A stretch of DNA of 64,000 nt from Diplonema papillatum (Eukaryota > Euglenozoa > Diplonemea > Diplonemida > Diplonemidae), in assembly GCA_030068145.1 (NCBI GenBank), contig JAPJBO010000234.1, positions 186,001 through 250,000 on the forward strand, read 5' to 3'. A model generated the notes under the pieces. The model saw only the letters and a list, made by a program, of their open reading frames with translations. It was not told the DNA's origin and did not search any database. The translations under genes and the position numbers were made by a program. This document shows, in pieces, positions 1,051 to 47,060 of this stretch. How positions within the stretch are numbered: the first letter of the stretch is position 1; each line of letters begins with the position of its first letter.

Positions 1051-1993
1051 CTGTTTCTCTTCGCACTTTTTTACTTTTCCAGTTTTTGCCGCCATGGTCT
1101 TTGGTATCTCGCCTTTTTTGGCCGGCATCGTCTTTCGAAAACCATTCGCTACTGCAACCAGGCATTCCCGGAAGTTTTTCTCCAACGCGCATTCGAGTCT
1201 GGAGAGCTCACCGCTACACCAGAGGAATGCAAAACACGCTCTTCTTTTCTGTTCTGTAGGGCAAGACGGGGCTAGACGGTCTTACTGACGGGCTAGCGTA
1301 CAGTAGTTCCTCCGCGCCTGAAGAAAAGGAAGAGTCATTTCCAATGACACTACTGCTAGAGTGCGTGACAAGGATTGGCATGTTGGCGTCTGGCCAACCT
1401 CTACAACCGCCTCGGAAACCTTGGAACTTCCGTGCGCTTCTTCAAAAGAAGAAGCGCACGGAAGTACAAGGTATAGAACGGCCCGAACGACTACCTGGAC
1501 TACTCAACATCGCATTGTCGGTATCGATTTCCTCCGATCAGATCCGACGACTGAGTTACCCATCGCAGATGAGCGGTCCACGTAAGTTCATCCTTCCGTT
1601 CTAGAGAGTTGACCCCCATAACAAAAGGACTTTCACCTCTACTACGCACGGCATTTCCAAAATCTCCTTCATTCACGTGGCCTTTTTTTTTTTTTTTATA
1701 GCCACGTGCAATAGATATATATGTGTGAGGAAACTGCACCGCCCAAGTTGGACCTTCTGATCATGGTCATTTGCCAATTTGCCACCTGAAACCACGTCCA
1801 GGATTTGGGCTCAGGGTAGTGCGATCGACGAAAACTCTAGTTTCCCTTTCTTCTCCGACTCTCGCGGTGTACGGTTTTAGCCGTAATGTACCTTTCAACT
1901 ATCCCGAGGCTGGAACTTAATTCTCAAATTTAGCTCTTCCTGCGTGCAGGGAGTTAGAGGTGCAAGCCCGAAAAGAAGTTATCCGAAGTCCCC
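1051..1993. other. Intergenic, no gene recognised
   Basis: Mixed-composition DNA with a T run near 1683-1698. Around 1550-1625 it shares a short stretch (cccatcgcagatgagcggtc, then gttgacccc) with 35003-35060, so it holds at least one dispersed repeat fragment. No open frame here has recognisable protein features. Confidence 0.5.
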
Positions 1994-3172
1994 TCAGTCG
2001 AGGTCTTCGCGGCGGGAAAACGCGTAGTTTTTGGACCGAAGGTTGGCCGCGAACGTGTCGTTCGCCTGGACGCTGCGCATGCTGCTGATGAACATGTCGG
2101 TGGTCAGCGGCGCCATCGCCCGCGCCGCGCCGGGCGGCTTCCGCGGCGGCGGCTCCCGCCGGCCGCCGCCGGTGAAGTACCCGACTAGGGACGAGAACCC
2201 CGTGCCCTGCGACTCCGGCGCATGCGCGTGGTCAAGGCCCCTGACCGTGTCGTGGTCGAACGTCTCGTACACCTGCGTTCGGCACGCGTCCTGGCAGAGC
2301 TCCTTCAGGTCCGCCCCCGAATAGTTCTTCGTCATGGCCGCGATTTTGGGGACCTCCACGTGCTGCAGATCTTCTCCCGACAGCAGGATGTTCAAAATCT
2401 GCCTGCGCTCGTCGAGCGATGGATACGGAACGGGCACTTTGACGCTCAACCGCCGTAAAACTGCGGCATCCAGGGATTCGGGGCAGTTCGTGGCGCCGAT
2501 GACGACGATGCGGTGTCGCCGCTCGTCGGTGGCAAACCCGTCCCAGTGGCGGAGGAAGATTGTCTTCGCGTTGGAGTAGGCGTGGTTGTCCATCGAATTC
2601 CGGTGCGACAGCAGGCTGTCGAGTTCGTCGACGAAGACCACGCACGGCTGCACCTTGCGCGCGAGCGAGAAGACGGCGGCGACCGTTTGCTCGCTCTCCC
2701 CCAGCCACTTGCCGAAGATGCTTTCCACCTTCACTTCGAGGAAGGTCGCGCCACATGTCTTCGCAATCGCTTTCGCCAGCAGCGTCTTGCCCGTCCCTGG
2801 CGGTCCGTGCAGGAGGACCCCCTTGGGGGGCGAGCGAAGGGATCCGGCAGCGAACTGGTCCGCGTACTGGAACGGCGCGATGATGCACTGCTTGATGACC
2901 TTCTTCGCGTCCGCCAGCCCGCCGACCTTGGTGAGGTCGGTCGCGATGTCGTGGGGCTGCGTGATGCAGTCGAGCAGCGGCACCTCGGACCCGGTCGCCG
3001 TCACCCAGCTGTCGCCGATCTTCACAGTGCGGCTTCGCATGCCGCCGTGGAGAAACCGCGACAGCATGCAGAACCCGGTTCCGAGCACAGCGCCCTGCAG
3101 CACCGCCGTGGCGAGGAGCCGCTGCAGAAACTCGCGCTGTTCTTGCTCGCGATTCGAGTGCCCGCCGAACAT
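1994..3172 (-). CDS. Msp1/ATAD1-like membrane-anchored AAA ATPase
   Basis: The 392-residue protein has the layout of Msp1/ATAD1, the outer mitochondrial and peroxisomal membrane ATPase that extracts mislocalised tail-anchored proteins. Residues about 18-41 form a single N-terminal hydrophobic segment. A short linker leads to an AAA module with Walker A GPPGTGKT (123-130), Walker B VVFVDELD (about 178-185), sensor GATN (226-229) and paired arginine-finger residues at 240-241. The hexamer pore region follows Walker A (FGKWLGESE). The C-terminus after about residue 320 is a Gly/Pro/Arg-rich stretch (GGGRREPPPRKPPG) unlike the short tail of animal ATAD1. The first ATG sits directly before the membrane anchor, which supports this start. 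No intron is needed. Its first 82 codons recur exactly in a truncated copy just upstream (3435-3746). Family assignment is strong; membrane location is inferred. Confidence 0.88.
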   Translation of the reverse strand: MFGGHSNREQEQREFLQRLLATAVLQGAVLGTGFCMLSRFLHGGMRSRTVKIGDSWVTATGSEVPLLDCITQPHDIATDLTKVGGLADAKKVIKQCIIAPFQYADQFAAGSLRSPPKGVLLHGPPGTGKTLLAKAIAKTCGATFLEVKVESIFGKWLGESEQTVAAVFSLARKVQPCVVFVDELDSLLSHRNSMDNHAYSNAKTIFLRHWDGFATDERRHRIVVIGATNCPESLDAAVLRRLSVKVPVPYPSLDERRQILNILLSGEDLQHVEVPKIAAMTKNYSGADLKELCQDACRTQVYETFDHDTVRGLDHAHAPESQGTGFSSLVGYFTGGGRREPPPRKPPGAARAMAPLTTDMFISSMRSVQANDTFAANLRSKNYAFSRREDLD

Positions 3173-3248
3173 CTTTTCTATGTAGGATGCGGGGAGTGTA
3201 TTCAGCGAACTTCTTTTTCCTGGTTCGGCTTCATGCGCAATGCTTCAG

Positions 3249-3330
3249 TGTGAAAGGTCGCTTGAGAATCCGGGGTTTTAGAGTCTTGGGGTAATCGTCG
3301 TCGAAAGGGTCCATTTATGGTACCGTATAC
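3249..3330 (-). promoter_or_regulatory. Recurrent gene-upstream element, copy a
   Basis: About 80 bp before the AAA ATPase start lies a block reading, on the plus strand, cgcttgagaatccggggttt, then agtcttgggg, then a tcgtcgaaagggtcc / tatggtaccgtatac segment. Diverged versions occur upstream of other minus-strand genes and fragments (3815, 11590, 19385, 23629, 24078, 24703, 25152, 25420, 63840). Its fixed orientation and similar distance suggest a promoter or 5' leader element. A transposon-derived flank is the alternative. Confidence 0.4.
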
Positions 3331-3434
3331 TGGTACATACTACCGGTACTATGGTAGGATGCCAAAAGGTTTTGTTCTTCGCTTACACCACCGTGTGTGT
3401 GCGTCACCACCGTGTGTGTGTTGACAATTTACAG

Positions 3435-3746
3435 TTAACGGGGCTTCAAAGCCTTCGGGTGAAAGGGTCCGTTTATGATGCCGTATATTCGGTCTGCCAG
3501 CTTGGTGAGGTCGGTCGCGATGTCGTGGGGCTGCGTGATGCAGTCGAGCAGCGGCACCTCGGACCCGGTCGCCGTCACCCAGCTGTCGCCGATCTTCACA
3601 GTGCGGCTTCGCATGCCGCCGTGGAGAAACCGCGACAGCATGCAGAACCCGGTTCCGAGCACAGCGCCCTGCAGCACCGCCGTGGCGAGGAGCCGCTGCA
3701 GAAACTCGCGCTGTTCTTGCTCGCGATTCGAGTGCCCGCCGAACAT
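3435..3746 (-). pseudogene. 5' fragment of the AAA ATPase gene
   Basis: Codons 1-82 repeat the N-terminus of the ATPase at 1994-3172, including the membrane anchor. The shared block, 3501-3753 versus 2926-3178, is identical over 253 bp by eye. After the break near 3500 the frame runs 21 unrelated codons (LADRIYGIINGP...) into a copy of the upstream element and stops. There is no AAA domain, so at most a short membrane peptide could be made. The DNA just upstream is clearly related to that of the full gene but much more diverged than the coding part. Confidence 0.8.
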
Positions 3747-3809
3747 CTTTTCTTATAGGGAGATGGTGGAGTATTCAGCGGCAGCGAGCTTATTCTTCCT
3801 GGTTCGGGG

Positions 3810-3865
3810 TTTCATGCGTCTTTCGTTCCGGGGTTTCAAAGTCCTCGGATGATCACATGCCGAGG
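3810..3865 (-). promoter_or_regulatory. Recurrent gene-upstream element, copy b
   Basis: The plus-strand sequence ttccggggtttcaaagtcct followed by cggatga lies about 70 bp before the start of the truncated ATPase copy. It matches the element before the full gene at a similar distance. A further copy (cggggcttcaaagccttcgg, 3437-3456) sits between the two genes. Confidence 0.35.
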
Positions 3866-4129
3866 CTGTTTGCTATGTCGGGTATTCCGCCCCCCGTTGT
3901 GACGACGCGCTAGCTCTTGTCCAAAAAAAAGAAGTCAGAAAAAAGGAAGCGAGAGAACCGACGGCCTGGGGCACCAGCAGCTGCCAGCCCGAGTCGCTAG
4001 TCGTCGGGTGAGTCTAGCTTTCGTTCTTTGCAGGCCCGCACACAGCTTGAGTAGTTGCTTTTCCATTTTGTGTTGCCCGACAATGCTCTTACTCACATAC
4101 TGCGTAGGTGTGTATACTAGCTACCGATA

Positions 4130-4998
4130 GACCCTCAGGATGACCTCGAGGTCCTGAGGACGAGCTCGGGATGCCATCCTCAGCTCCTCCGTGCACCCAC
4201 GAGGTGTGGTATCTACCACCATACCACCACGTAGTACCACCACGTAGTACCACAGGCACTACAGGGTACTCTGTAGGTAGTATGTAGGTAGTATGTATAC
4301 CACCATACTACGTATGTGTGTATACTACCACGATACCGTAGCAGCTACAGGATGCAGGATGGGATATCCACCCACCTCCTGATGCTACGTGGTATCACAT
4401 ACCACCACATACCACCACACGTAGTACCACAGGCACTACCGGGTACTCTGTAGGTAGTATGTAGGTAGTATGTATACCACCATACTACGTATGTGTGTAT
4501 ACTACCACGATACCGTAGCAGCTACAGGATGCAGGATGGGATATCCACCCACCTCCTGATGCTACGTGGTATCACATACCACCACATACCACCACACGTA
4601 GTACCACAGGCACTACAGGGTACTCTGTAGGTAGTATGTAGGTAGTATGTATACCACCATACTACGTATGTGTGTATACTACCACGATACCGTAGCAGCT
4701 ACAGGATGCAGGATGGGATATCCACCCACCTCCTGATGCTACGTGGTATCACATACCACCACATACCACCACACGTAGTACCACAGGCACTACAGGGTAC
4801 TCTGTAGGTAGTATGTAGGTAGTATGTATACCACCATACTACGTATGTGTGTATACTACCACGATACCGTAGCAGCTACAGGATGCAGGATGGGATATCC
4901 ACCCACCTCCTGATGCTACGTGGTATCACATACCACCACATACCACCACACGTAGTACCACAGGCACTACAGGGTGTATGTATAGGTAGTATGTAGGT
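4130..4998. repeat. 177-bp satellite, about 4.5 units
   Basis: A unit containing gggtactctgtaggtagtat, then accaccatactacgtatgtg and gcaggatgggatatccaccc, recurs at 4264, 4441, 4618 and 4795, an exact 177-bp period. Copies are nearly identical, so amplification is recent. The unit is itself built of short tagta/taccacca motifs. Nothing in it looks coding. The interval 3866-4129 before it holds no gene. Confidence 0.9.
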
Positions 4999-5025
4999 AG
5001 TATGTATAAGCACCTGCTTTTTGTA

Positions 5026-5214
5026 GGAAATACTTGAGGAGGCTGCCAGCTGCAAAAGATCGAAGGAGGTAAATGTGCTGTAGCCCACACGAAACACAGG
5101 CGAATCTGGCTTCAGTGGCGGGCGTAACAAAAAAGACCCACTTTGTAGTTGTATTGTTTTCTCCCCCTCTAGCCTCCTTCGAAGTAAGCACAAGGCAGCT
5201 CCTCGAGTATTTTA
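5026..5214. mobile_element. MITE-like element, family M1, copy 1
   Basis: A ~190-bp sequence bounded by imperfect inverted ends (ggaaatacttgaggaggctg on the left, cagctcctcgagtatttt on the right). The interior contains cccacacgaaacacaggcga and ctccccctctagcctccttc. Related copies lie at 35893-36084, 47747-47940, and in truncated form at 39369-39480 and about 27085-27245. Size, inverted ends and lack of coding capacity fit a nonautonomous DNA transposon. No clear target duplication is visible. Confidence 0.6.
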
Positions 5215-31384: not shown

Positions 31385-32278
31385 TTAGCGCCACATTCCT
31401 TCGCGCTCGTAGAGCACGTCCACCCGCTTGTTCCTGTTTGGGTGTTTAGTAAACGGCCTGTCTTCCAGGACCGGGCCGAGGAGCGCTTCCCTGGCCAGGG
31501 CCGCCACCCCATCACGGAGTGCTGTGTGGGCGCGGGTGCGGAGCCCGGTGTTCAAACACGACAGGGAGTGATCCCCGAAGCGATCGGCCGTGGCTAGCCC
31601 GCAGAGGCGGCACACCCGGTCCCGGGGTGCCAGCGGCATCCCCAGCCTCAGACGGACGGCCACCGTCAGCTCGGCTCGGGACATCCACAGGTCGTCCAGA
31701 GCGTTGTGCGCTCCGTAGAGCCACGTCGACGCGTGTTTGGCCGCGCAGCTGCGGACCCTTGCCTGGCCCCTGACTCCGGTGAGCGGGTTCCTCAGCAGGC
31801 TCTCCTGCCTGGCTGCCGAGATCTTCACCGCCCACTCCCTCTGCTTACGCGGAACGCTCGCGGCCCCTGCTTGCAGTGAGTCCCTGACCTCGGTCAGGAC
31901 TCCCGGGAAGAGTGCAAGTCTGGGGCAGCTGAGCGATGCCGCGCATACGGAATCCTGTGTGGGTGTGACTGTGTGCGGCCCCCCTTCGGGGGACCTGGTC
32001 AGGAGGGGGAGGCCCTTCATGCCTTCTAGGGTCGCCGCCGCCCCTGCCACGGCCGCCGTGTCCGCGCAGGAGTGCATCCCCAGGCCGCCCAGCCTGAGGG
32101 GCAGCGATGTCTGTAACCATTCCAGGTCGCTCAGCTCGGCCCCGAGGGTCTTTCCCACGGCTCGCCGCATGAAGGTGTCGACCCTTCCACAGTCGGTCGT
32201 CGGTCCGGTCGCCCGCATGAGCGACACGACGCAGACGAACCCCGCGCACGAGTTCAGCAGGGCCTTCACGTCCAGCAT
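31385..32278 (-). pseudogene. C-terminal part of a non-LTR retrotransposon reverse transcriptase
   Basis: The 297-codon frame has the hallmarks of the region after the polymerase core in certain LINE-type proteins. These are LPLRLGGLGMHSC, a long helical part, then a Cys/His module CRLCGLATADRFGDHSLSC, and a final RVDVLYEREGMW block. No polymerase motifs (A to E) are present upstream, so this is a 3' fragment, probably a 5'-truncated insertion. It is continuously open. No host role is inferred. Confidence 0.6.
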
Positions 32279-37182: not shown

Positions 37183-39273
37183 CTACTCTGGGGCTGGTTC
37201 GCAGTCGTGGATGGCATGCGGTTTTGGGTTGTGCTCTTCGTCAGCCTGCAGGGAGAAGTACGACGTGAGCCACGGGAGGTAGAAGTACAAGTAGCGCAGC
37301 CACGTTGCCGGCTTGTTGGCGTGCTGGGGCGGGGGCAGGGCCATCGAATATGCGTCGTAGAACTGGCCGTTGACGAAGTAGTAGGCTTCAAGCCGCTCGA
37401 CGGTGCGGAACCCGTGCTTCGCGTAGAAACGGACGGCGGGCATGTTCTCGGTGAGGACGTGCAGGTTGATGGTCTGGCACCCCGCGACGTACAACCGCGA
37501 GATGATCTCGCCCAGCAGGCTGGACCCCACGTTGCGCTTCCGCATCGCGTACTCGACGCCGAAGGTGCTGATGTACCCGGAGTTGGCCGCCTGCCAAAAC
37601 GGCCACCCCTTCGCGGCATCCACCCTCCCCGTCGCGACCCCTACCACCCGCTCGTCCTGCACGGCGACCACGGCCAGCAGCCCGCCGCGCATCATCGCTG
37701 AGTAGAATTTCTCCGAGTACGATATCGGGAACAGCTCCTCGTGGATCCGCCGCACCTCTGCCAGCCACCACGGGCTCATGCTCCGGAACGTCACCGGCGC
37801 GTCGGACGCCGCCCGCGGCTTCGCCGGGATGGGCACGCCGTTGTTACACATATACGCAGGTTCCAACCCAGTTGTCAGCCGTCCCGGCGCCAGGGGCGCA
37901 GGGGCCTTCAGCCCCGCCCTTCGCTGCCCCACAGCCGCAGCGTTGCCCTGGCTCTGTGCGGGCCCGTGCGCTTCGTCGGGTAGCAGCGGCGGGTGGGGCC
38001 GCGGGGTCTGCGCACCACCCCCGAGCCAGCGGCAGTCGGCCGCCTGCTGTTGGCAATGTGCCGCCGGCTCCTGCGACGACGGGTTTGCAGCGTGGCGGTC
38101 GCTGCCCCAGCCGTTGTTTGCACCTGGTTCGGGTTCTTCTGGGTGTGCGCCCCAGCCGTCTTGCGGGGCCTGCCAGCTCCCTTGCGCAGCCGCCAGCTCT
38201 CGCGGCGACGGGCTTGCAGCGTGGCGGTCGCTGCCATCCAGCTTCCCAGGGCCCGTGCTCCAGCCGTTGTTTGCACCTGGTTCGGGTTCTTTTGGGTGTG
38301 CGCCCCAGCCGTCTTGCGGGGCCTCCCGCCAGCTCCCTTGCGCAGCCGCTCGCTCTCGCGGCGACGGGCTTGCAGCGTGGCGGTCGCTGCCACCCAGCCT
38401 CCCCGGGCCCGCACCCCAGCCGTTGCTTGCGCCCGCTTCGGGTTCTGCTGAGTGTGCGCCCCAGCCCCGCCAACTCCCCTTCGCGGCCTGCCGTTGGGTA
38501 TGCGCCGCCGGCTCTTGCGCCGACGGCGGGTTTGCAGCGTGGCGGTCGCTGCCACCCAGCTTCCCAGGGCCCGCGCCCCAGCCGTTGCCACCGTATGCAC
38601 CTGCTTCGGGTTCTTCAGCGTGTGCGCCCCAGCCTTCTTGCAGGCTCTCCCGCCAGCTCCCTCGCGCAGGCTGCTGTTGGGGACGTGCCGCCGGCTCCTG
38701 CGGCGACGGGTGCCGGTCGCTGCCACCCCGCAACCCGGGGCCCGCGCCCGCCCAGCCGTCGTCCGCCGCGGGTTCGGGTCCTTCTGCTGGGTGTGCACCG
38801 CGGCCGTTCCGCAGGGCTCCCCGCCAGCTCCCGTCGGCGGCCTGCCGCTGCGGTCGGGGCTGCGTCGTCGCCGGCTCTTCCGCTCGAGGGCCCCAGCCCT
38901 TGTGCACGCCGGGCTCGGGTCCTTCGGGGCGGCCGTGTTGCAGGGTTTCCCACCAACTCCCGTCGGCGGCCTGCTGCTGCTGTTGCCAGGGCAGTGCCGC
39001 CGGCTCTTGCAGCGGTGCGCTCGCTGCGTGGCGGCCGCTGGGACCGGGCGTCCCGGGGCCTGTGCCCCAGCCGTTGCGCGCGCCCGGGTCCGGCCGGTTC
39101 GAATCTCCCGCGCGCGGGGTCTGCGGGTTGTTGCTCCGGCTTGCGCTTTTGGCGTTGGACGCGCCCCTGGGCGCCTCTTCGAAGAATCCCTCGCCGTCGT
39201 CATCGTCACCACCGCCGTCACCACCACCGGCACCGTCCCCGTGCGGCCGCTTTCTCTTCATCCCCATCATCAT
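37183..39273 (-). CDS. NAA60-like GNAT N-acetyltransferase with long disordered N-terminus
   Basis: From the ATG at 39273 (MMMGMKRKRPHGDG) the protein has 696 residues. A longer frame from 39345 is possible. Residues about 1-480 are disordered, built of imperfect repeats of the type DGWGAHPEEPEPGANN / GGSDRHAASP. Residues about 495-660 form a GNAT fold with the acetyl-CoA loop RKRNVGSSLL and the NAA60 signature pattern: FPISY near the start, YISTFGVE, INLHVLTENMPAVRFYAKHGF. NAA60 acetylates N-termini of membrane proteins at the Golgi. The C-terminal amphipathic, aromatic stretch (TWLRYLYFYLPWLTSYFSLQ) fits its membrane-binding helix. The animal enzyme is about 240 residues, so the long repeat region is unusual. 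An M1 element sits just upstream and a broken partial copy just downstream. Confidence 0.82.
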   Translation of the reverse strand: MMMGMKRKRPHGDGAGGGDGGGDDDDGEGFFEEAPRGASNAKSASRSNNPQTPRAGDSNRPDPGARNGWGTGPGTPGPSGRHAASAPLQEPAALPWQQQQQAADGSWWETLQHGRPEGPEPGVHKGWGPRAEEPATTQPRPQRQAADGSWRGALRNGRGAHPAEGPEPAADDGWAGAGPGLRGGSDRHPSPQEPAARPQQQPARGSWRESLQEGWGAHAEEPEAGAYGGNGWGAGPGKLGGSDRHAANPPSAQEPAAHTQRQAAKGSWRGWGAHSAEPEAGASNGWGAGPGRLGGSDRHAASPSPRERAAAQGSWREAPQDGWGAHPKEPEPGANNGWSTGPGKLDGSDRHAASPSPRELAAAQGSWQAPQDGWGAHPEEPEPGANNGWGSDRHAANPSSQEPAAHCQQQAADCRWLGGGAQTPRPHPPLLPDEAHGPAQSQGNAAAVGQRRAGLKAPAPLAPGRLTTGLEPAYMCNNGVPIPAKPRAASDAPVTFRSMSPWWLAEVRRIHEELFPISYSEKFYSAMMRGGLLAVVAVQDERVVGVATGRVDAAKGWPFWQAANSGYISTFGVEYAMRKRNVGSSLLGEIISRLYVAGCQTINLHVLTENMPAVRFYAKHGFRTVERLEAYYFVNGQFYDAYSMALPPPQHANKPATWLRYLYFYLPWLTSYFSLQADEEHNPKPHAIHDCEPAPE

Positions 39274-39368
39274 CTCTCGGACCTGCAAGCATACCTCCTG
39301 CTGCACATTCACTTCGCACATCCTCGCGCCTGCGGATGAGCACACTCACCACGCACGCAATCCAGAAC

Positions 39369-40974: not shown

Positions 40975-41590
40975 ATGACCGAGGCGACAGTTTTTTTTTG
41001 ATTCTGAAGGACCTCCCATTCGCCTCTGCGGATGAAAAGAGTGATGTTCTTAGCCTTGCGTTTCGCGAGGATTTGAATGATGGCGTTGAAGCCCTCAAGG
41101 GTGAGCCAGATGTATTGTTAGCTGCATTGCGTAAACTCTTGAAGAGGAGCGAAAAGGTTGGCAAAACCGGGTCGTTGGCGTCTGAGACGAACGAGACGGA
41201 CTCCGGGAATGCATCAGACACCGAAAACGAAGACGAAGACGAAGATGAAGACGAAGACGAAGCTGTTGGGACTGCCCCTGTGTCACCGGACACAACTTCT
41301 GTGTTGCCAGTGGTGGGAGCACTTTTTCCATCGGCCGACAGTTTTTTTTGAACGGGTGCTAGCAGTCTGTTACCTTCAGCAACGAAGCTCCGGCGTTCAC
41401 AGAGAGCAACCCGTATTTTGCTGCCATCAGAGCAGTAGATCCGGACTCGTGTAGTCGTGTGTACACCAAGCGCGATGAAGAAGGCAGGCGGTTTACATTT
41501 TGTTTCCTGGCCTTCGGGGCCGCGATCCGTGCGACCGCCCACGTGGTCCCACTGATAAGCATTGACGCCGCGCACATCGAAAGGGGGGGG
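40975..41590 (+). pseudogene. MULE 2 transposase, N-terminal part
   Basis: The ATG at 40975 leads through a T run of nine. One more T would join it to the 117-codon frame at 40998-41351, which carries a highly acidic DEDEDEDED stretch. After a second T run and further small frame changes, 41363-41590 reads SNPYFAAIRAVDPDSCSRVY ... CFLAFGAAIRATAHVVPLIS, IDAAHIER. This is the MULE region leading to and including the first catalytic aspartate. It then enters the G run of the nested insertion. Several frameshifts mark it as dead, unless the T-run lengths are sequencing errors. Confidence 0.65.
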
Positions 41591-41603
41591 GGGGGGGGGG
41601 GGC

Positions 41604-42689: not shown

Positions 42690-42713
42690 GGGGGGGGGGG
42701 GGGGGGGGGGGGG

Positions 42714-42790
42714 ACTTAGTTTAATGTTTAGGCAGAACACTGCCTCGCATGCATGTTTGATGCTAGCATCAAGTCTTCGTCGAAGAAAGT
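42714..42790 (-). promoter_or_regulatory. Three-hairpin 3' end of the retroelement
   Basis: Stems AGGCAG/CTGCCT (42730-42745), the palindrome TTGATGCTAGCATCAA (42757-42772) and TCTTC/GAAGA (42774-42786) are packed within 60 nt next to the C tail. The same set occurs at 20590-20690, and the first stem at 11909 and upstream of the zinc-protein gene copies. A role in template recognition by the reverse transcriptase is inferred. Confidence 0.55.
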
Positions 42791-43142
42791 GTAAAATAAA
42801 ATAGGGGAAAGGGAAAAAGGGTCGCAGGGAGTGTAAGACTCCGCAGGTAGGGTCTGGAACCTTGAGGGACTATTCCTCTTTATTCTTTTTTTCACCGCGG
42901 TGTTGTGTGCACCTCGTTCTTTGTCTCTGGTTTCGCTCTTGAACGCATACCAATCCAAAGTTAGAGCTCTTCAGTGGGTCCTTTGGACGGGGACTTTCGG
43001 TCCTGTTCCGGTGCTATCACAACTTTCTGGTTCCAATGTATGTCGCATCCTTCCTTCGTCAGATTAAAAAAAGGGGGTTCTGGTTTGGGTTGTGGCTCGT
43101 AACCAACCGCCACGGGGCACTGCTTCCACTGAGTGAAAGTGT

Positions 43143-44381
43143 TTATATCTTCTCAAGGGAGACGATGTAACCGTTCGAAACGAACTTTCCGGCACATGCT
43201 TCCCATGAGAGCACTGATACTTGCTGGTCGTCATAACACACCCATTCGTCTGCTTCTTTCATGATGGTGTAATAGTGCCCAGCATGTACTTTTCCAGTGT
43301 GGATTATGAAACCCGTCACCATGTACGTGTCTTCGCCAATCCCAATGGTTGATTGGATTGGTGTGCGGGCTTTCACTTTTATCTCCTCGCCTGTCCTCTT
43401 CGACCGTTGGGCTCGTTTCAGTGCCACGTCCATCACATTTGGAAAGGCATAGATCTCTTTCGAGGAGCCTACCGTCTTCTTTCGGCAAGTTGTACAGTCG
43501 AGGTCTACATCGGCTGCTCTCTTGTTCTTTACTTTGTTTACAAGAGCTTCAACCGTCTCGATGTAGGAGTTCTCCCTGTTCTTGAGCTCTACAAGGAGAA
43601 ATGGTTCTAACACCGGCACCGCTGTCGAGGTCTCCTGACATACTTTACAGGTGGTTCGTCGTGAGTATGTCACCATCGTTGGGTCGTTGTTGTCCCCCCT
43701 CACGCAGCCTCTCATCCATGTCAGCAGTTCGTGGGCATGGATGTCACGGCCAGCATCAAAATCCGTGAAGAGTCGACGGAATTTCAACTGTTCTTCTTCC
43801 GGGCGCTCGATAGTTTCGAGTTGGTTCCGGAAGTTTCGTTTGCGTGCCAGAAATTGGACGCTGGCGGCAAAGAAGCACGTGTTGCGAACGTTGGTGATGC
43901 CGTTGCGGTTGCGTTTGGGAGAACCTGTTGGTTCGTTTGAGGGTGAGACCGTCGTTGTGGTGTTTTCGGGCTCGGGCGGGTTGGGCGTCTGATGTGGTGG
44001 GGAGGTGGGTCGGTTCGGCTGCCGGGTGTTGATGTACGGCTTTTCTGCGTTCGTCGGGCGTCCTTCGTCGTAGGCTTTCCCGACATAGTAGTAAAACTGT
44101 GTCAGCACCCGTGCGTCCAGTTCGTACTTGCCGTATGTCTGCACGACAAAAGTATCGAACGTGTGTCGAAGTTCACGTCCGGAGAACCCACGATCTCGCA
44201 ACCTGTAGTATACCTTCATTATCTCGACTTTGAGATCAGGCATGTTGTTGCAGATGCGGGCTGCTCGTATCAGAGCACCTTTGAATATCGAGGTTCTGGT
44301 GTTTCGCGGAACCGTCGACTCGGCATGCGTGTATTTGATGGGGTACCATGGAAACTCTTCACCCTTGTCAAGAACGGAGAG
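43143..44381 (-). CDS. RT C-terminal segment and ubiquitin-specific protease (peptidase C19) domain
   Basis: This frame is continuous, in the same reading frame, with the reverse transcriptase that ends at the TGA 44382-44384. Directly after the stop it reads LSVLDKGEEFPWYPIKYTH... and SIFKGALIRAARICNN, the conserved post-catalytic region of Penelope-type RTs. It then passes through a Pro/Thr linker (RQPNRPTSPPHQTPNPPEPE) into a USP domain. Counting from Met 44243, the Cys box is NVRNTCFFAASVQFL with catalytic C123. Two zinc pairs follow (C199/C202 CKVC, C250/C253 CTTC), then the His box GKVHAGHYYTIM (H323) and EWVCYDDQQVS with the third catalytic Asp (338/339). All catalytic residues are present. 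The domain (about 250 residues) is short compared with host USPs. The role is unknown; stabilising element proteins or countering host ubiquitin-based defence are possibilities. Confidence 0.8.
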   Translation of the reverse strand, partial: LSVLDKGEEFPWYPIKYTHAESTVPRNTRTSIFKGALIRAARICNNMPDLKVEIMKVYYRLRDRGFSGRELRHTFDTFVVQTYGKYELDARVLTQFYYYVGKAYDEGRPTNAEKPYINTRQPNRPTSPPHQTPNPPEPENTTTTVSPSNEPTGSPKRNRNGITNVRNTCFFAASVQFLARKRNFRNQLETIERPEEEQLKFRRLFTDFDAGRDIHAHELLTWMRGCVRGDNNDPTMVTYSRRTTCKVCQETSTAVPVLEPFLLVELKNRENSYIETVEALVNKVKNKRAADVDLDCTTCRKKTVGSSKEIYAFPNVMDVALKRAQRSKRTGEEIKVKARTPIQSTIGIGEDTYMVTGFIIHTGKVHAGHYYTIMKEADEWVCYDDQQVSVLSWEACAGKFVSNGYIVSLEKI

Positions 44382-46161
44382 TCAGATGAAGTTGGCTTTG
44401 TTGCCCCTCTCAACTCTAACGCGCATCCCCAAGAAGACTACGTCGTCAACGTCTTTCGACGTTTCCGAATACTCCATGCCGTAGATTGCTTCCGGTGGTG
44501 GTCGTGCACTCCAAGTCAGGAAATCATCGATGAACCTGACGCTGTCGGCGTGGGCTCTGGCTTCTTCATGGCGTCCTTCCGTGATCAGGCTATCGATGTA
44601 AAGCTTTTCACACCAGTAGCAATACAGATTCGCCAGATCTGGGCTTGCGTTACCGCCCATTGGAATTCCAGTTACCTGCTGGTAACATTGACCACCGTTC
44701 GTCACAAACGTGTTGCCGACAATGAATTCGACCAATTCCCGGATCTCCTCGAGGTTGTATGCTGTCCCGTCCATCGCGTCAGCATTGCTGAACTCGAACT
44801 GCTGCTTCGACCGTCGTGCCTTCAGGTCATGACCACGTTCCGCCTTCGCGTACTCGAATGCTTCCGACACAGCGAGCATGACGTACTCTACAATTCGCTG
44901 TTGCGGAATCTTTGTGTACATTTCTTTGAAATCGAATGTACGTGGGACCTTCTGGCGTAGCCGTGCGTAGTTTGTTTTGATGTTGATTCGACGACGAAGA
45001 AGCAACGTATCCCCGTCTTTGCCCGAGACGCTTCGTCCTTGCCTTGCAGTGTGGCTAGAACCAGTTTTAGGATGCCCGATGTCTCTTGGTGGGCTGGTGT
45101 TGTTGAGGCGCGCGTCTTCGGTTGCTTCTTGTTGGGAGTTTTTTCAGCTTTTGCCTGCTGTCCGTCCGTTTTCTCCGCGTTTCCCTTCTCTGAAACGCCG
45201 GCAATGTACCGCATCCGAGGCTCGGGTTTGTGTAGCTTCGGAGTACCATATAGATATGGCAGGATGTTGGAGTGGGTGAAGTTGTGGGACTTGTTGAAGG
45301 TTTGGTGTTGCTGGAGAATGTCTGCCATCGAGGTGTCAACATGTTTGTAGGCTGAGCTTTGGTGTAGCTCTTTTCGAATGAGTTCCTTGTACTTTTCCTT
45401 GCAGATGAAACCGAAATCGTGTGCAGTTTTGTCTACAGGAAGAATGACAAGGTGTTCTTGCAGTTTCTTCAGCGTCCGCAGGGCATCTCGGAGGTGCGGC
45501 TCGTCCGTGTGTGCGTTGAGCGTTCCAAGAACGGCGTCGAACTCTTCTGTCAGTGTTGCTGCAAAATGCGATTTCTCGCTCTCGCTTGTCTGCCTGAAGT
45601 TGTTGGCAACGAACTCTTCGACGTCGAACCGCATCGAATCGTAGAGTGACATCGGGCTGCTGGCTACTCGGTATTTTCGTCCCTTGCGGAAAAGTGACAA
45701 AAGGGCCTCGTCTGTCTTCAGGTCCGTTGCTAGCCCCAGAGCGTGTCCGTCTAGATGACTATTCTGTATGTGTTGTTTGCACGGACAGGTCGCCTCGGTG
45801 TTTGTCGGTTGGTGCGTCTCGTAGCTGACCTCGGTGAAGTTGCACAGGAGTGTCGCCAACGGTGGTTTCAGGCGGTTGCTCACCATGAGATTATCGAGAA
45901 CCGCCGGGTTGGGGCATGCCTCGCGAATCCTTGTTCGAGAAAGGACACCAGCGATTGCCGTGCGGTCTTGTGCCGGGTGTTGGTGAGTCAGCTTGAAGTA
46001 TCGGCGGGGAGGTGCTGCCTTCTTCTCGGTCCGGTTCCTGATGCGTTGACTGAGAAGTCGTTCGAGAGTTCTCACGTTGTCTGTTACGCTCTCGCCCTGT
46101 ATGAAGGTTCTCAGCCAGGTGCGGAGGCGTAGGGCGCGGTTTGGATGCCAAGTGGACATTG
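44382..46161 (-). pseudogene. Penelope-type reverse transcriptase, one frameshift
   Basis: The N-terminal frame from ATG 46161 (MSTWHPNRALRLRTWLRTF) carries CPCKQH..., DGH and GRKYR motifs, then LPVDKTAHDFGFICKEKY and LPYLYGTPKLHKPEPRMRYI, typical of Penelope-like RTs. A one-base loss in an A run near 44972-44976 moves the reading to the second frame (44382-45005). There follow TFDFKEMYTKIP, GIPMGGNASPDLANLY and the catalytic RFIDDFL, then FLGMRV. A TGA at 44382 separates it from the in-frame continuation with the USP domain. Apart from that indel and stop the polymerase motifs are complete, so decay is recent, or the stop is read through. It is transcribed opposite to the MULE gene. Confidence 0.8.
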
Positions 46162-46432
46162 TTTCCTGGCCTTCGGGGCCGCGATCCGTGCGACCGCCCA
46201 CGTGGTCCCACTGATAAGCATTGGCGCCGCGCACATGGAAAGGGGGGGGGTGCTTTTCAGTGCTGTTGGCATCGACGCCAACCTCGGCACAATTCCCATT
46301 TGCTACGCTTTGGGAACCACGGAAGATACAGAGTCATGGTCTCGATTCCTTCAAAATCTGAGCGAAATACACGCTGGCAGCAACTTTGGCCTCATTTCTG
46401 ACAGGGACAAAGGACTCGAGGCCGGGAACACA
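46160..46432 (+). pseudogene. MULE 2 transposase, catalytic part after the insertion
   Basis: The frame repeats CFLAFGAAIRATAHVVPLIS and then passes through a G run of nine that keeps frame (ERGGVLFSAVGIDANLGTIP). It continues to ESWSRFLQNL and ISDRDKGLEAGN, the MULE segment with the second catalytic region. It stops at 46432, before the usual C-x-x-H/zinc-knuckle end, so the gene was already defective or ended here by mutation. Confidence 0.7.
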
Positions 46433-46614
46433 TAAAGCGGAACGTGGTTTCTTCTCTGGATTGGCATGATGTCGCTCTTTGATGCCTTTTCATGCCCTTT
46501 CCACTCAGAATGGGAACGCTCCAATTTCACCGCAGCTTTACTAATGTGTACATGGGTGAACCCCAACATCAGATCATTCCACGGGTCGACGTGCAGCAAG
46601 CAGGTTTCACTACA

Positions 46615-46845
46615 CCGTGCAAGGGACTTTTCCAAAATCAGGTGTCCATATACGGGACCTGGAAAGTTTGTCCATACAAGGGGCTATAAAAAAATATCTC
46701 GTCCATACAAGGGACTTTTCCAAAGTCAGGTGTCCATACAAGGGACTTTTTCAAAGTCAGGTGTCCATACAAGGGGATTTCGAAAGTTTGCTGTCCATAC
46801 AAGGGACTTTTTCAAAGTCAGGTGTCCATACAAGGGACTTTACCC
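46615..46845. repeat. Subterminal repeats of MULE 2, right
   Basis: Units of tgtccatacaagggactttt, (tc)caaagtcagg in the complementary orientation to the left array. The last unit ends in tttaccc at the element boundary. Confidence 0.8.
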
Positions 46846-46856
46846 AAAAAAAAAAA

Positions 46857-47060
46857 CGTTACTTGACGCTCTTTAGCCACGCAAGTTGCCCAAATGAGCT
46901 TACTCCACCGCTGATGCTCCTCAATTACGCAAGTGGTTCAACGTGAACTCCGCACGTTACCTGACGCTCTTTAGTCACGCAAGTTGCCCAAGCGCACGCA
47001 CTCCACCCCTGATGCTTCTCAACTACGCAAGGTAGCAGCTTGTCACTCGACGCCCTTTCG
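46857..47060. repeat. ~100-bp satellite, right of MULE 2
   Basis: cgttacttgacgctctttag, ccacgcaagttgcccaaatg and gcttactccaccgctgatgc continue the array found at 40185-40386, in the same orientation and phase. Confidence 0.8.

Follow-up and report, generated by a model that had tools for sequence, protein, structure and literature searches.

A decayed retroelement copy joining a reverse transcriptase and a ubiquitin-specific protease in Diplonema papillatum, and its intact relatives

The copy in the window

The window is the whole 64,000-nucleotide stretch analysed here, positions 186,001 to 250,000 of contig JAPJBO010000234.1 (assembly GCA_030068145.1, Diplonema papillatum). Its minus strand holds a 5'-truncated, decayed retroelement copy in which a reverse transcriptase (RT) is followed by a C19 ubiquitin-specific protease (USP). 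The features are listed in Table 1. The copy belongs to what is called family 1 below, and its alignment to L002, an intact sister copy, begins at query position 1501 at 96-97% identity (blastn).

A preliminary description of this DNA placed the element at 42714-46161, which was nearly right. It also reported RT motifs and USP boxes on the same strand, with the last RT frame and the USP frame in register, and the motifs, their coordinates and the shared frame all hold. The frames at 44382-45143 (RT) and 43143-44381 (RT tail, linker and USP) form one reading frame with a single TGA between them.

Compared to L002, the window copy has two deletions: 19 nt are missing from the RT near 44982 and 63 nt from the USP around 43737, directly ahead of the QD box. 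An intron was considered for the 63-bp difference and dropped, as the extra 63 nt of the sister copies are in-frame coding sequence. An AlphaFold2 model of the window USP alone had a mean pLDDT of 43 and was not used.

The 92-bp direct repeats around the copy are probably a target-site duplication. No clear duplication was seen at 11 other loci, where the fetched flanks are short: L010 has a tandem repeat, L013 has 14 bp, L017 a 15-bp C run and L024 an imperfect 109-bp match, and the other seven showed nothing.

Table 1. Features of the element copy and its flanks, in window coordinates.
Feature	Position	Strand	Basis or remark
Decayed family-1 RT-USP copy, 5'-truncated	42701..46158	-	blastn vs L002: query 1501-3942 at 97.1%, 4006-5058 at 96.0%
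RT region, N-terminal part with CPC motif and LPVDKTAHDFGF	44983..46158	-	~L002 residues 417-807; frame stops at the 19-nt deletion near 44982
CPC (CxC) motif	45779..45787	-	sequence; kept in 7/7 full-length family proteins compared
RT core frame: motifs A, B (GIPMGGNASPD), C (RFIDD)	44385..44982	-	frame, profile and alignment analyses
RT motif B site GIPMGGNA	44647..44669	-	pattern match C234:230647-230669
RT motif C RFIDD	44523..44537	-	sequence; conserved
In-frame TGA	44382..44384	-	frames of L002-L008 have no internal stop
RT C-terminal extension, Pro/Thr linker and USP, one frame, 412 aa	43146..44381	-	open reading frame
C19 USP domain, frame residues 161-395	43197..43901	-	UCH match E 9.7e-18
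USP catalytic Cys codon (RNTCFFAAS box)	43875..43877	-	pattern match C234:229861-229883; column kept in 8/8 element-type USPs
63-nt deletion site, immediately before QD box	43736..43738	-	L002 has 21 extra residues there
USP catalytic His codon (GHYYT)	43275..43277	-	sequence; element-type USP alignment
USP catalytic Asp codon (YDDQQV)	43227..43229	-	sequence; element-type USP alignment
Left 92-bp direct repeat, probable target-site duplication	41500..41591	+	97.8% to 46159-46250; ends in G run
Right 92-bp direct repeat, probable target-site duplication	46159..46250	+	adjoins truncated 5' end

Intact copies and their architecture

Intact sister copies in the same genome have one uninterrupted frame of 1448 aa. 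From N to C terminus, family 1 encodes a GIY-YIG nuclease (EN, residues 249-336), a CPC motif (540-542), the RT, a Pro/Thr linker and the C19 USP. In L002 both end domains score above their Pfam cut-offs (GIY-YIG E 5.5e-6, UCH E 3.8e-18). The nuclease and the direct terminal repeats described below were absent from the preliminary description; both were overlooked because the window copy is truncated.

All seven of L002-L008 have open frames of 1448 codons. They are nearly identical, with at most 2 differences from L002 over the first 5000 bases, one of these being common to the other six. Their flanks differ, the tandem neighbours L005 and L006 excepted. In a protein search, 32 of 32 scored copies are 73-100% identical and stay free of stops across the USP, as far as residue 1447 or 1448; these 32 are the best of 4272 first-look candidates, and so are biased towards intact copies.

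A repeat of ~388 bp is found both upstream and at the 3' end of L011 and L013-L017. It is partial in L018 (at the fetch edge) and short or broken in L012 and L020. L019, L024 and the window copy are 5'-truncated, and contig C510 has a tandem array of 5726-bp units. Family-1 bodies finish at a common 3' end with the USP inside, and their 5' junctions frequently lie at C runs.

The RT itself is a poor match to general profiles. RVT_1 is below cut-off in the window frame (E 0.019), and the other proteins scanned all match it under the cut-off or not at all. L002 weakly matches a group II intron RT model (E 5.6e-4, far below the model cut-off), and no sequence match for the RT profile was found in the PDB at E<=0.1. 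The RT call is therefore based on ordered motifs, the weak group II intron match and the sister copies. The motifs LPVDK, YGxxKLHK, [FW]DF..MY, GIPMG.NASPD and RFIDD occur in this order in all seven family proteins, and we take them to be typical of Penelope-like elements. The family alignment also has an extra stretch between RT blocks, a possible insertion-in-fingers domain.

For the nuclease, PF01541 is over cut-off in L002, L029 and L042, and under it in L027, L040 and L041. The EN residues Y, Y, R, H, E and N (339) are conserved in 7/7 proteins; across EN and RT, the checked positions are kept in all seven, EN position 335 excepted. No CCHH motif, whose presence or absence separates Naiad from Chlamys elements, was seen by eye ahead of the EN. 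A search of one locus, L011, gave no Rfam match at E<=1, to a hammerhead ribozyme or otherwise, and scans of a viral contig collection found no relatives. A weak resemblance of the CPC region to an arenavirus glycoprotein (Pfam E 0.0015 in the window and 0.024 in L002, PDB 0.005) was judged to be chance.

Architecture and motifs together support an N-terminal-endonuclease Penelope-like element as the probable form, in line with the 'Penelope-type' label given earlier. The direct terminal repeat, the 5' truncation, the tandem array and the 5' junctions at C runs are further reasons for this assignment.

RT and USP travel together

Degenerate patterns for the RT listed 207 sites, and of the first 100 of these, 49 are family 1 and 51 other haplotypes. 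At 48 of the 49 family-1 sites, the same strand has the USP Cys box 760-801 bp further downstream. Reversed control patterns for RT and USP gave 0 matches. In a DNA search, 35 of 36 copies with a match to query position ~2415-2426 resume in the remaining USP after 63-65 bp; the lone exception, L020 on C604, ends inside the USP. The preliminary description had said that copies ending before the USP would speak against a fusion, and nearly all copies in both searches continue into it. Copy number, co-linearity and the empty reversed control together exclude chance adjacency.

Near the 51 other haplotypes, a family-1 USP box was found at one site (x7, at 1568 bp) and at none of the other 50. This is expected if these are other families, and it is also compatible with a missing USP. 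One of these sites, L055, was sampled. Element families with no USP may therefore exist in this genome, as L055 is the one sample of 50 sites and its USP match is partial and under cut-off.

Related families

Two further families have the same domain order, with proteins of 1585-1590 aa (family 2) and 1562 aa (family 3). A partial fourth family, L055, also has this order. Their RTs are ~36-39% identical to that of family 1, and between family 1 and families 2/3 the USPs are 20-26% identical. In family 2, 55 of 57 scored places reach residue 782-783 of a 783-residue query, which is beyond the USP (UCH at 384-649).

The USP is thus placed with high confidence on two deeply separated lineages, family 1 and families 2/3, and with lower confidence on a third, L055, where a cut-off piece of the locus gives a partial UCH match that stays under the threshold (E 0.0019). 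Because the USP rides the same element in such distant RT lineages, the predicted RT-plus-USP fusion is firmly supported.

Families 2/3 have a C2H2-like finger after the USP, which family 1 lacks. It was identified by visual inspection, and Pfam has nothing matching it at E<=1. The finger's dN/dS is 0.10 (0.015-0.368), versus 0.49 in the spacer preceding it.

Conservation of the USP

The window frame matches Pfam UCH (PF00443) with a score of 65.1 bits, where 23.9 is the cut-off. Of the two profiles that had been proposed for this element, UCH is clearly present and RVT_1 weak. UCH is also over cut-off in L002, L027, L029, L036, L040, L041, L042 and L054. No OTU or Ulp1 domain was matched in Pfam at E<=1.

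The catalytic Cys, His and Asp, the QD-box Asp and the zinc cysteine pairs are present in all eight element-type USPs compared, one of which (L054) was assigned by similarity alone from its fetched domain. In PDB alignments, the boxes of the element USP pair with those of USP12 and USP21.

Within family 1, five far comparisons give a USP dN/dS of 0.096-0.150, and the near one gives 0.249. In family 2 it is 0.222 (0.150-0.307), versus 0.376 for the linker. The RT core is the slower-evolving of the two enzyme domains in all comparisons (for example 0.059 versus 0.222 for the USP), so constraint on the USP is weaker than that on the RT. Of seven regions, the linker ranks first in dN in each of the six family-1 comparisons (linker dN 0.08-0.66, dN/dS 0.24-0.61). 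Codon comparisons show the USP, with its full catalytic set, to be under purifying selection at a dN/dS of 0.10-0.25. Conserved residues and purifying selection both favour activity, and the domain is likely an active deubiquitinase or ubiquitin-like hydrolase tethered to the element RNP.

Relation to known elements

Penelope-like elements with an N-terminal endonuclease, the Naiad/Chlamys clade, were reportedly described by Craig et al. in MBE in 2021. We take the clade to be defined by an N-terminal GIY-YIG, a CxC before the RT, a single long ORF, direct terminal repeats, a simple-repeat bias and the absence of a hammerhead. The present element is like this clade in its nuclease, CxC, single ORF, terminal repeats and simple-repeat bias, and no hammerhead was found. 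It differs in its C-terminal C19 USP, in the C2H2-like finger of families 2/3 and in its host, which the spliced leader identifies as a diplonemid. We know of no USP in the published clade, and no fusion of a retroelement with a C19 domain was found in the literature searched.

The USP resembles cellular ones (USP12/46/14/21) in its Cys, QD, His and Asp boxes and zinc cysteine pairs. Unlike these, it has a short core of ~260-275 aa and is joined to an RT.

Some transposons bear OTU or Ulp1 domains with a proposed, not proven, role (PMC2836005). The proteases of Ginger1, Mutator and Helitron are likewise ubiquitin/SUMO-type cysteine proteases on a transposition enzyme, C-terminal in Ginger1, but they are not C19 USPs, and their partner is a DNA transposase or Helitron protein instead of an RT. 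The same paper has a closer parallel in Trichomonas vaginalis XP_001314237.1, a transposase_11 with Peptidase C19 (PMC2836005). That protein is a DNA transposase fusion, whereas here a retroelement has nuclease, RT, many intact copies and several families. The giant Gypsy-like Burro elements of planarians also carry ubiquitination-related domains, suggested to interfere with host systems, but these are LTR elements, and the domains are MATH/TRAF and BIR instead of a USP-family protease (PMC6431247).

In the present case a USP-class cysteine protease is joined to an RT and maintained by selection in more than one family, and the host has intact copies that are almost identical. Gene replacement is reported to work in this flagellate (PMC10161547). 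With intact copies at hand, the role of a transposon ubiquitin protease could therefore be tested by a single catalytic mutation.

Origin and possible role

The copy in the window is dead and 5'-truncated, and it comes from a multi-copy nuclease-RT-USP element whose USP is under selection in at least two lineages. The reading we lean towards adds that the USP is likely active and tethered to the element RNP, with protection in cis as the best guess at its function.

A tree had been proposed for deciding whether the USPs form one group. With 19 rows, the element USPs fall in two clades (100/100 support each) that are apart in the best tree, and a single clade is not rejected (p-AU 0.182). With two long host rows removed, they lie on one side of a branch, at a non-significant 63/82. 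The two clades would suit two or more separate acquisitions, each of a host USP and by a different lineage of elements, instead of one ancestral acquisition. We find this possible but doubtful, given the p-AU value and the shorter tree, and one origin is favoured because the domain order is identical across families. Equally tentative is a broader view, in which the deubiquitinase was there from the start of a whole diplonemid retroelement radiation and has remained a fixed component of it. Nuclease, RT and deubiquitinase would then act as a single enzyme, altering the ubiquitin on its own protein, on chromatin or on repair factors during insertion, and by copy number most USP domains in the genome may be element-owned.

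Retroelements are considered targets of host ubiquitin systems. Like the preliminary description, we infer that the deubiquitinase may protect its RT or counter host ubiquitin control. Tethered to the element RNP within a single polypeptide, the USP would work in cis, stripping the RT/nuclease RNP of ubiquitin as target-primed insertion proceeds, and the element protein would escape proteasomal turnover. Such cis protection is our best guess, held at about even confidence. The family, in Diplonema or a very close relative, suggests that such genomic parasites may bring their own tool against host ubiquitin tagging.

In the main alternative, the USP would have a second site of action, at the nick, where its targets would be the ubiquitin signals of chromatin or repair factors. 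It would deubiquitinate H2A/H2B or nearby repair factors and so open the chromatin, or damp damage signalling, during copying by the RT. Nuclease, RT and USP in one polypeptide would suit this, as would the constraint on the finger, which fits DNA targeting; a DNA-repair role is also what Bao et al. 2010 proposed for transposon OTU/Ulp1 domains (PMC2836005). But family 1 has no such finger, and the finger call was made by eye. We regard this role as somewhat unlikely.

It is very unlikely that the USP is a polyprotein-processing protease that cuts itself off the RT. Its C-terminal place behind a flexible linker would allow this, but no LRGG-like ubiquitin tail was seen by eye in that linker, whose divergence argues against a conserved cleavage site.

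Least probable of all is that the USP is host DNA captured by this copy or subfamily only, or there by chance: host-like USP genes are many (in the genome USP search 34 rows outscore the repeated groups, and 11 of 12 fetched resemble host genes), but the DNA copies, the protein search, the co-linear sites, the conservation of the fusion in family 2 and beyond, and purifying selection all reject it.

Structure of the element

The genome that was searched comes to 271.4 Mb in 2910 contigs. In it, sister copies of the element carry a single open reading frame which, measured between stop codons, is 1448 codons long. The first Met is residue 41, and it is invariant across 6 aligned proteins. Pfam places a GIY-YIG nuclease (EN) at residues 249-336 of the intact protein (E 5.5e-6) and a C19 ubiquitin-specific protease (USP, profile UCH) at residues 1175-1431 (E 3.8e-18), both above cut-off. 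The reverse transcriptase (RT) profile RVT_1 matches residues 889-973 below its cut-off (E 0.095), and an NCBIfam model for group II intron RTs matches weakly (E 5.6e-4), far under its own cut-off. The RT blocks are, in sequence, LPVDK, YGxPKLHK, FDFKEMY, GIPMGGNASPD, RFIDD and FLGMR. In its architecture the element agrees with the Penelope-like clade that has an N-terminal endonuclease. A weak arenavirus GP2 match at residues 498-601 of the protein P0001 (Pfam E 0.0015 and 0.024, PDB E 0.005) is probably due to chance.

Seven loci, L002 to L008, differ by at most 2 bases from L002, the intact family-1 reference, over the first 5000; one difference is common to the other six. They diverge at a common 3' point directly past AAGTTTTCCCC, L003 a few bases earlier. 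Their flanks differ, except that L005 and L006 are tandem neighbours with a common flank.

The copy in the window

According to the preliminary description, a USP and RT motifs share one strand and one frame. This holds: both are present, and the minus-strand frames 44382-45143 and 43143-44381 are in phase, with a single TGA as their sole separator. UCH matches the latter frame with E 9.7e-18. The window copy is a fossil. Compared with L002 it starts at query position 1501, so it is 5' truncated, and it has two deletions, one of 19 nt in the RT and another of 63 nt in the USP. Outside these gaps identity is 96-97%.

Direct repeats of 92 bp (98%) bracket the copy, with a G run at the repeat ends. 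These are probably a long target-site duplication within a MULE-like transposase frame. A search of 11 further loci, whose fetched flanks were short, gave no clear target-site duplication. The segment between the element and the left repeat has ends rich in ATTTTATT and imperfect terminal inverted repeats, and is perhaps a nested small DNA transposon.

Features of the window
Feature	Position	Strand	Basis or context
Window copy of the element	42701-46158	-	alignment to L002
~1.1-kb segment	41592-42698		between element 3' end and left 92-bp repeat
MULE-like transposase frame, split by the element copy	41363-41591 and 46159-46435	+	by eye
Tandem array of a ~30-bp unit similar to CCCTTGTATGGACACCTGACTTTGGAAAAGT	46600-46860		by eye
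Non-LTR retrotransposon protein-like C-terminal frame, zinc-knuckle-like motif	31385-32278	-	by eye
AAA ATPase-like frame, 416 aa	1994-3244	-	by eye
720-aa frame, low-complexity N-terminal and GNAT acetyltransferase-like C-terminal part	37183-39345	-	by eye

Linkage of the USP to the RT

The USP is part of the element. In a DNA search, 35 of the 36 copies that match to query position ~2415-2426 resume 63-65 bp on, in the last part of the USP. The exception is on contig C604; the copy on C29 continues in two pieces. In a protein search, all 32 scored places, the best 32 of 4272 first-look candidates, are 73-100% identical and free of stops up to residue 1447 or 1448; this result is biased toward intact copies because the best candidates were the ones scored.

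Genome-wide, the pattern for RT motif B has 207 sites and that for the USP Cys box 132, and reversed controls have 0. Co-linearity was assessed on the first 100 places listed for each pattern. Family-1 haplotypes make up 49 of the listed RT sites, and in 48 of these a same-strand Cys box follows 760-801 bp downstream. At one listed site with a different haplotype the distance is 1568 bp; the remaining 50, also of other haplotypes, are without the Cys box downstream.

Selection

Among four family-1 types, USP dN/dS is 0.096, 0.150, 0.110, 0.127, 0.112 and 0.249, the first five ratios being rough because synonymous divergence is near saturation. The RT has 0.061-0.141 in these comparisons and the linker 0.24-0.61. 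Between two family-2 loci, L040 and L041 (dS ~0.6), the values are 0.222 (0.150-0.307) for the USP, 0.059 for the RT, 0.376 for the linker, 0.490 for the post-USP spacer and 0.100 for a C-terminal finger. The USP is therefore constrained, less than the RT and more than the linkers.

The catalytic Cys, His and Asp, the QD-box Asp and two checked zinc columns are kept in 8/8 element-type USPs; zinc cysteines are missing from some host USPs. Checked EN and RT positions are kept in 7/7 proteins, except for the variable EN position 335.

In L002, L027, L028 and L029, residues 41-240 have a dS of 0.39-0.56 in five far comparisons, versus mostly ~1 or more elsewhere. This is possibly RNA-level constraint, recombination or biased composition.

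Other families and the origin of the USP

The flank of L007 contains part of a second element. Extended as L036 (family 2), its RT runs into a USP (E 9e-21), and identity to family 1 is 26% across RT and USP combined. With L036 as query, 55 of the 57 scored places (the best 57 of 1504 candidates) extend to residue 782-783 of 783; the remaining two end at 769 and 657, and one has an internal TGA. The full frames of L040 (1590 aa) and L041 (1585 aa) have an N-terminal GIY-YIG slightly under cut-off, CPC, RT, USP and, by eye, a C-terminal C2H2-like finger.

A genome search with UCH scored the best 149 of 935 candidates. The top 34 rows, some of them duplicates, score above a set of repeated groups, and most are host-like by inspection. 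Twelve of these were fetched: 11 are host-like, and L054, of which the fetched piece covers the USP domain, is similar to family-2/3 USPs by that domain. Many lower rows among the 149 share equal scores, and 13 lie in frames that are each exactly 1562 aa long. L042 (family 3) is among these frames and has GIY-YIG (22.9 bits, cut-off 22.6), CPC, RT, USP and finger. In L055, from another RT haplotype, the RT region shares 37% identity with family 1 and 43% with family 2; the USP match of L055 is partial and below cut-off (E 0.0019), and the fetched piece stops within the USP.

A tree built from 8 element-type USPs and 11 host-type ones splits the former into two clades, each 100/100. The data do not reject a single clade of all eight (p-AU 0.182), and with two long host rows omitted the element USPs join, with weak support (63/82). 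The equal domain order favours one acquisition of the USP over two. A closer host donor may be missed, because the 11 host USPs were sampled from among the 34 top rows.

Termini and junctions of family 1

A direct repeat of ~388 bp (query 4667-5054) lies at the 3' end, and a second copy precedes the query start by ~1.06 kb. The upstream copy is present in L011 and L013-L017, partial in L018 (at the fetch edge), and short or broken in L012 and L020. L019 and L024 are 5' truncated, as is the window copy. Contig C510 has three successive copies at 5726-bp spacing. Of 12 printed 5' junctions 9 are informative; L009 and L010 (inside an array) and L018 are not. A C run is found at six (L013, L014, L016, L017, L019, L024) and absent at three (L011, L012, L015). 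It may be partly the element's own, because the ~388-bp repeat has CCCCC near its start. Near the family-1 copy L021 (contig C1058) is a long frame similar, by eye, to a voltage-gated cation channel.

Related work and possible function

Transposon-borne proteases of the ubiquitin/SUMO type are already known. PMC2836005 describes OTU and Ulp1 proteases on Ginger1, Mutator and Helitron elements, as well as a Trichomonas transposase with an attached C19 domain; Burro elements carry ubiquitination-type domains (PMC6431247). Searches of the open-licence PMC literature, judged by titles, abstract starts and passages of three papers, yielded no description of a C19 USP on a retroelement. The D. papillatum genome paper (PMC10161547) reports a 39-nt leader, an assembly of ~280 Mb with 52% repeats, and ~2500 retroelement gene models, naming LINE-1, SLACS, R2 and jockey types; its main text has 0 occurrences of 'Penelope' and of 'ubiquitin'.

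Judged by sequence, the simplest reading of the element USP is an active deubiquitinase, because its catalytic residues are intact and under selection. Fusion to the RT would tether it to the element RNP, and via the nuclease it would also be brought to the insertion site. Most likely, in our judgement, it would deubiquitinate the protein that the element itself encodes; the next candidate would be a role on chromatin or repair factors.

Spliced leader

The genome contains 624 occurrences of a 20-base tail of the spliced leader (control 0). At both loci read, L034 and L035, it sits within ACCAACGATTTAAAAGCTACAGTTTCTGTACTTTATTG, which we take to be the Diplonema spliced leader. This marks the host as a diplonemid, with D. 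papillatum or a near relative the most likely identity. The genome paper gives 110 SL RNA genes (PMC10161547). At position ~1483-1520 of these two loci the tail is followed by GC, not GT, which suggests retrocopies of trans-spliced mRNAs.
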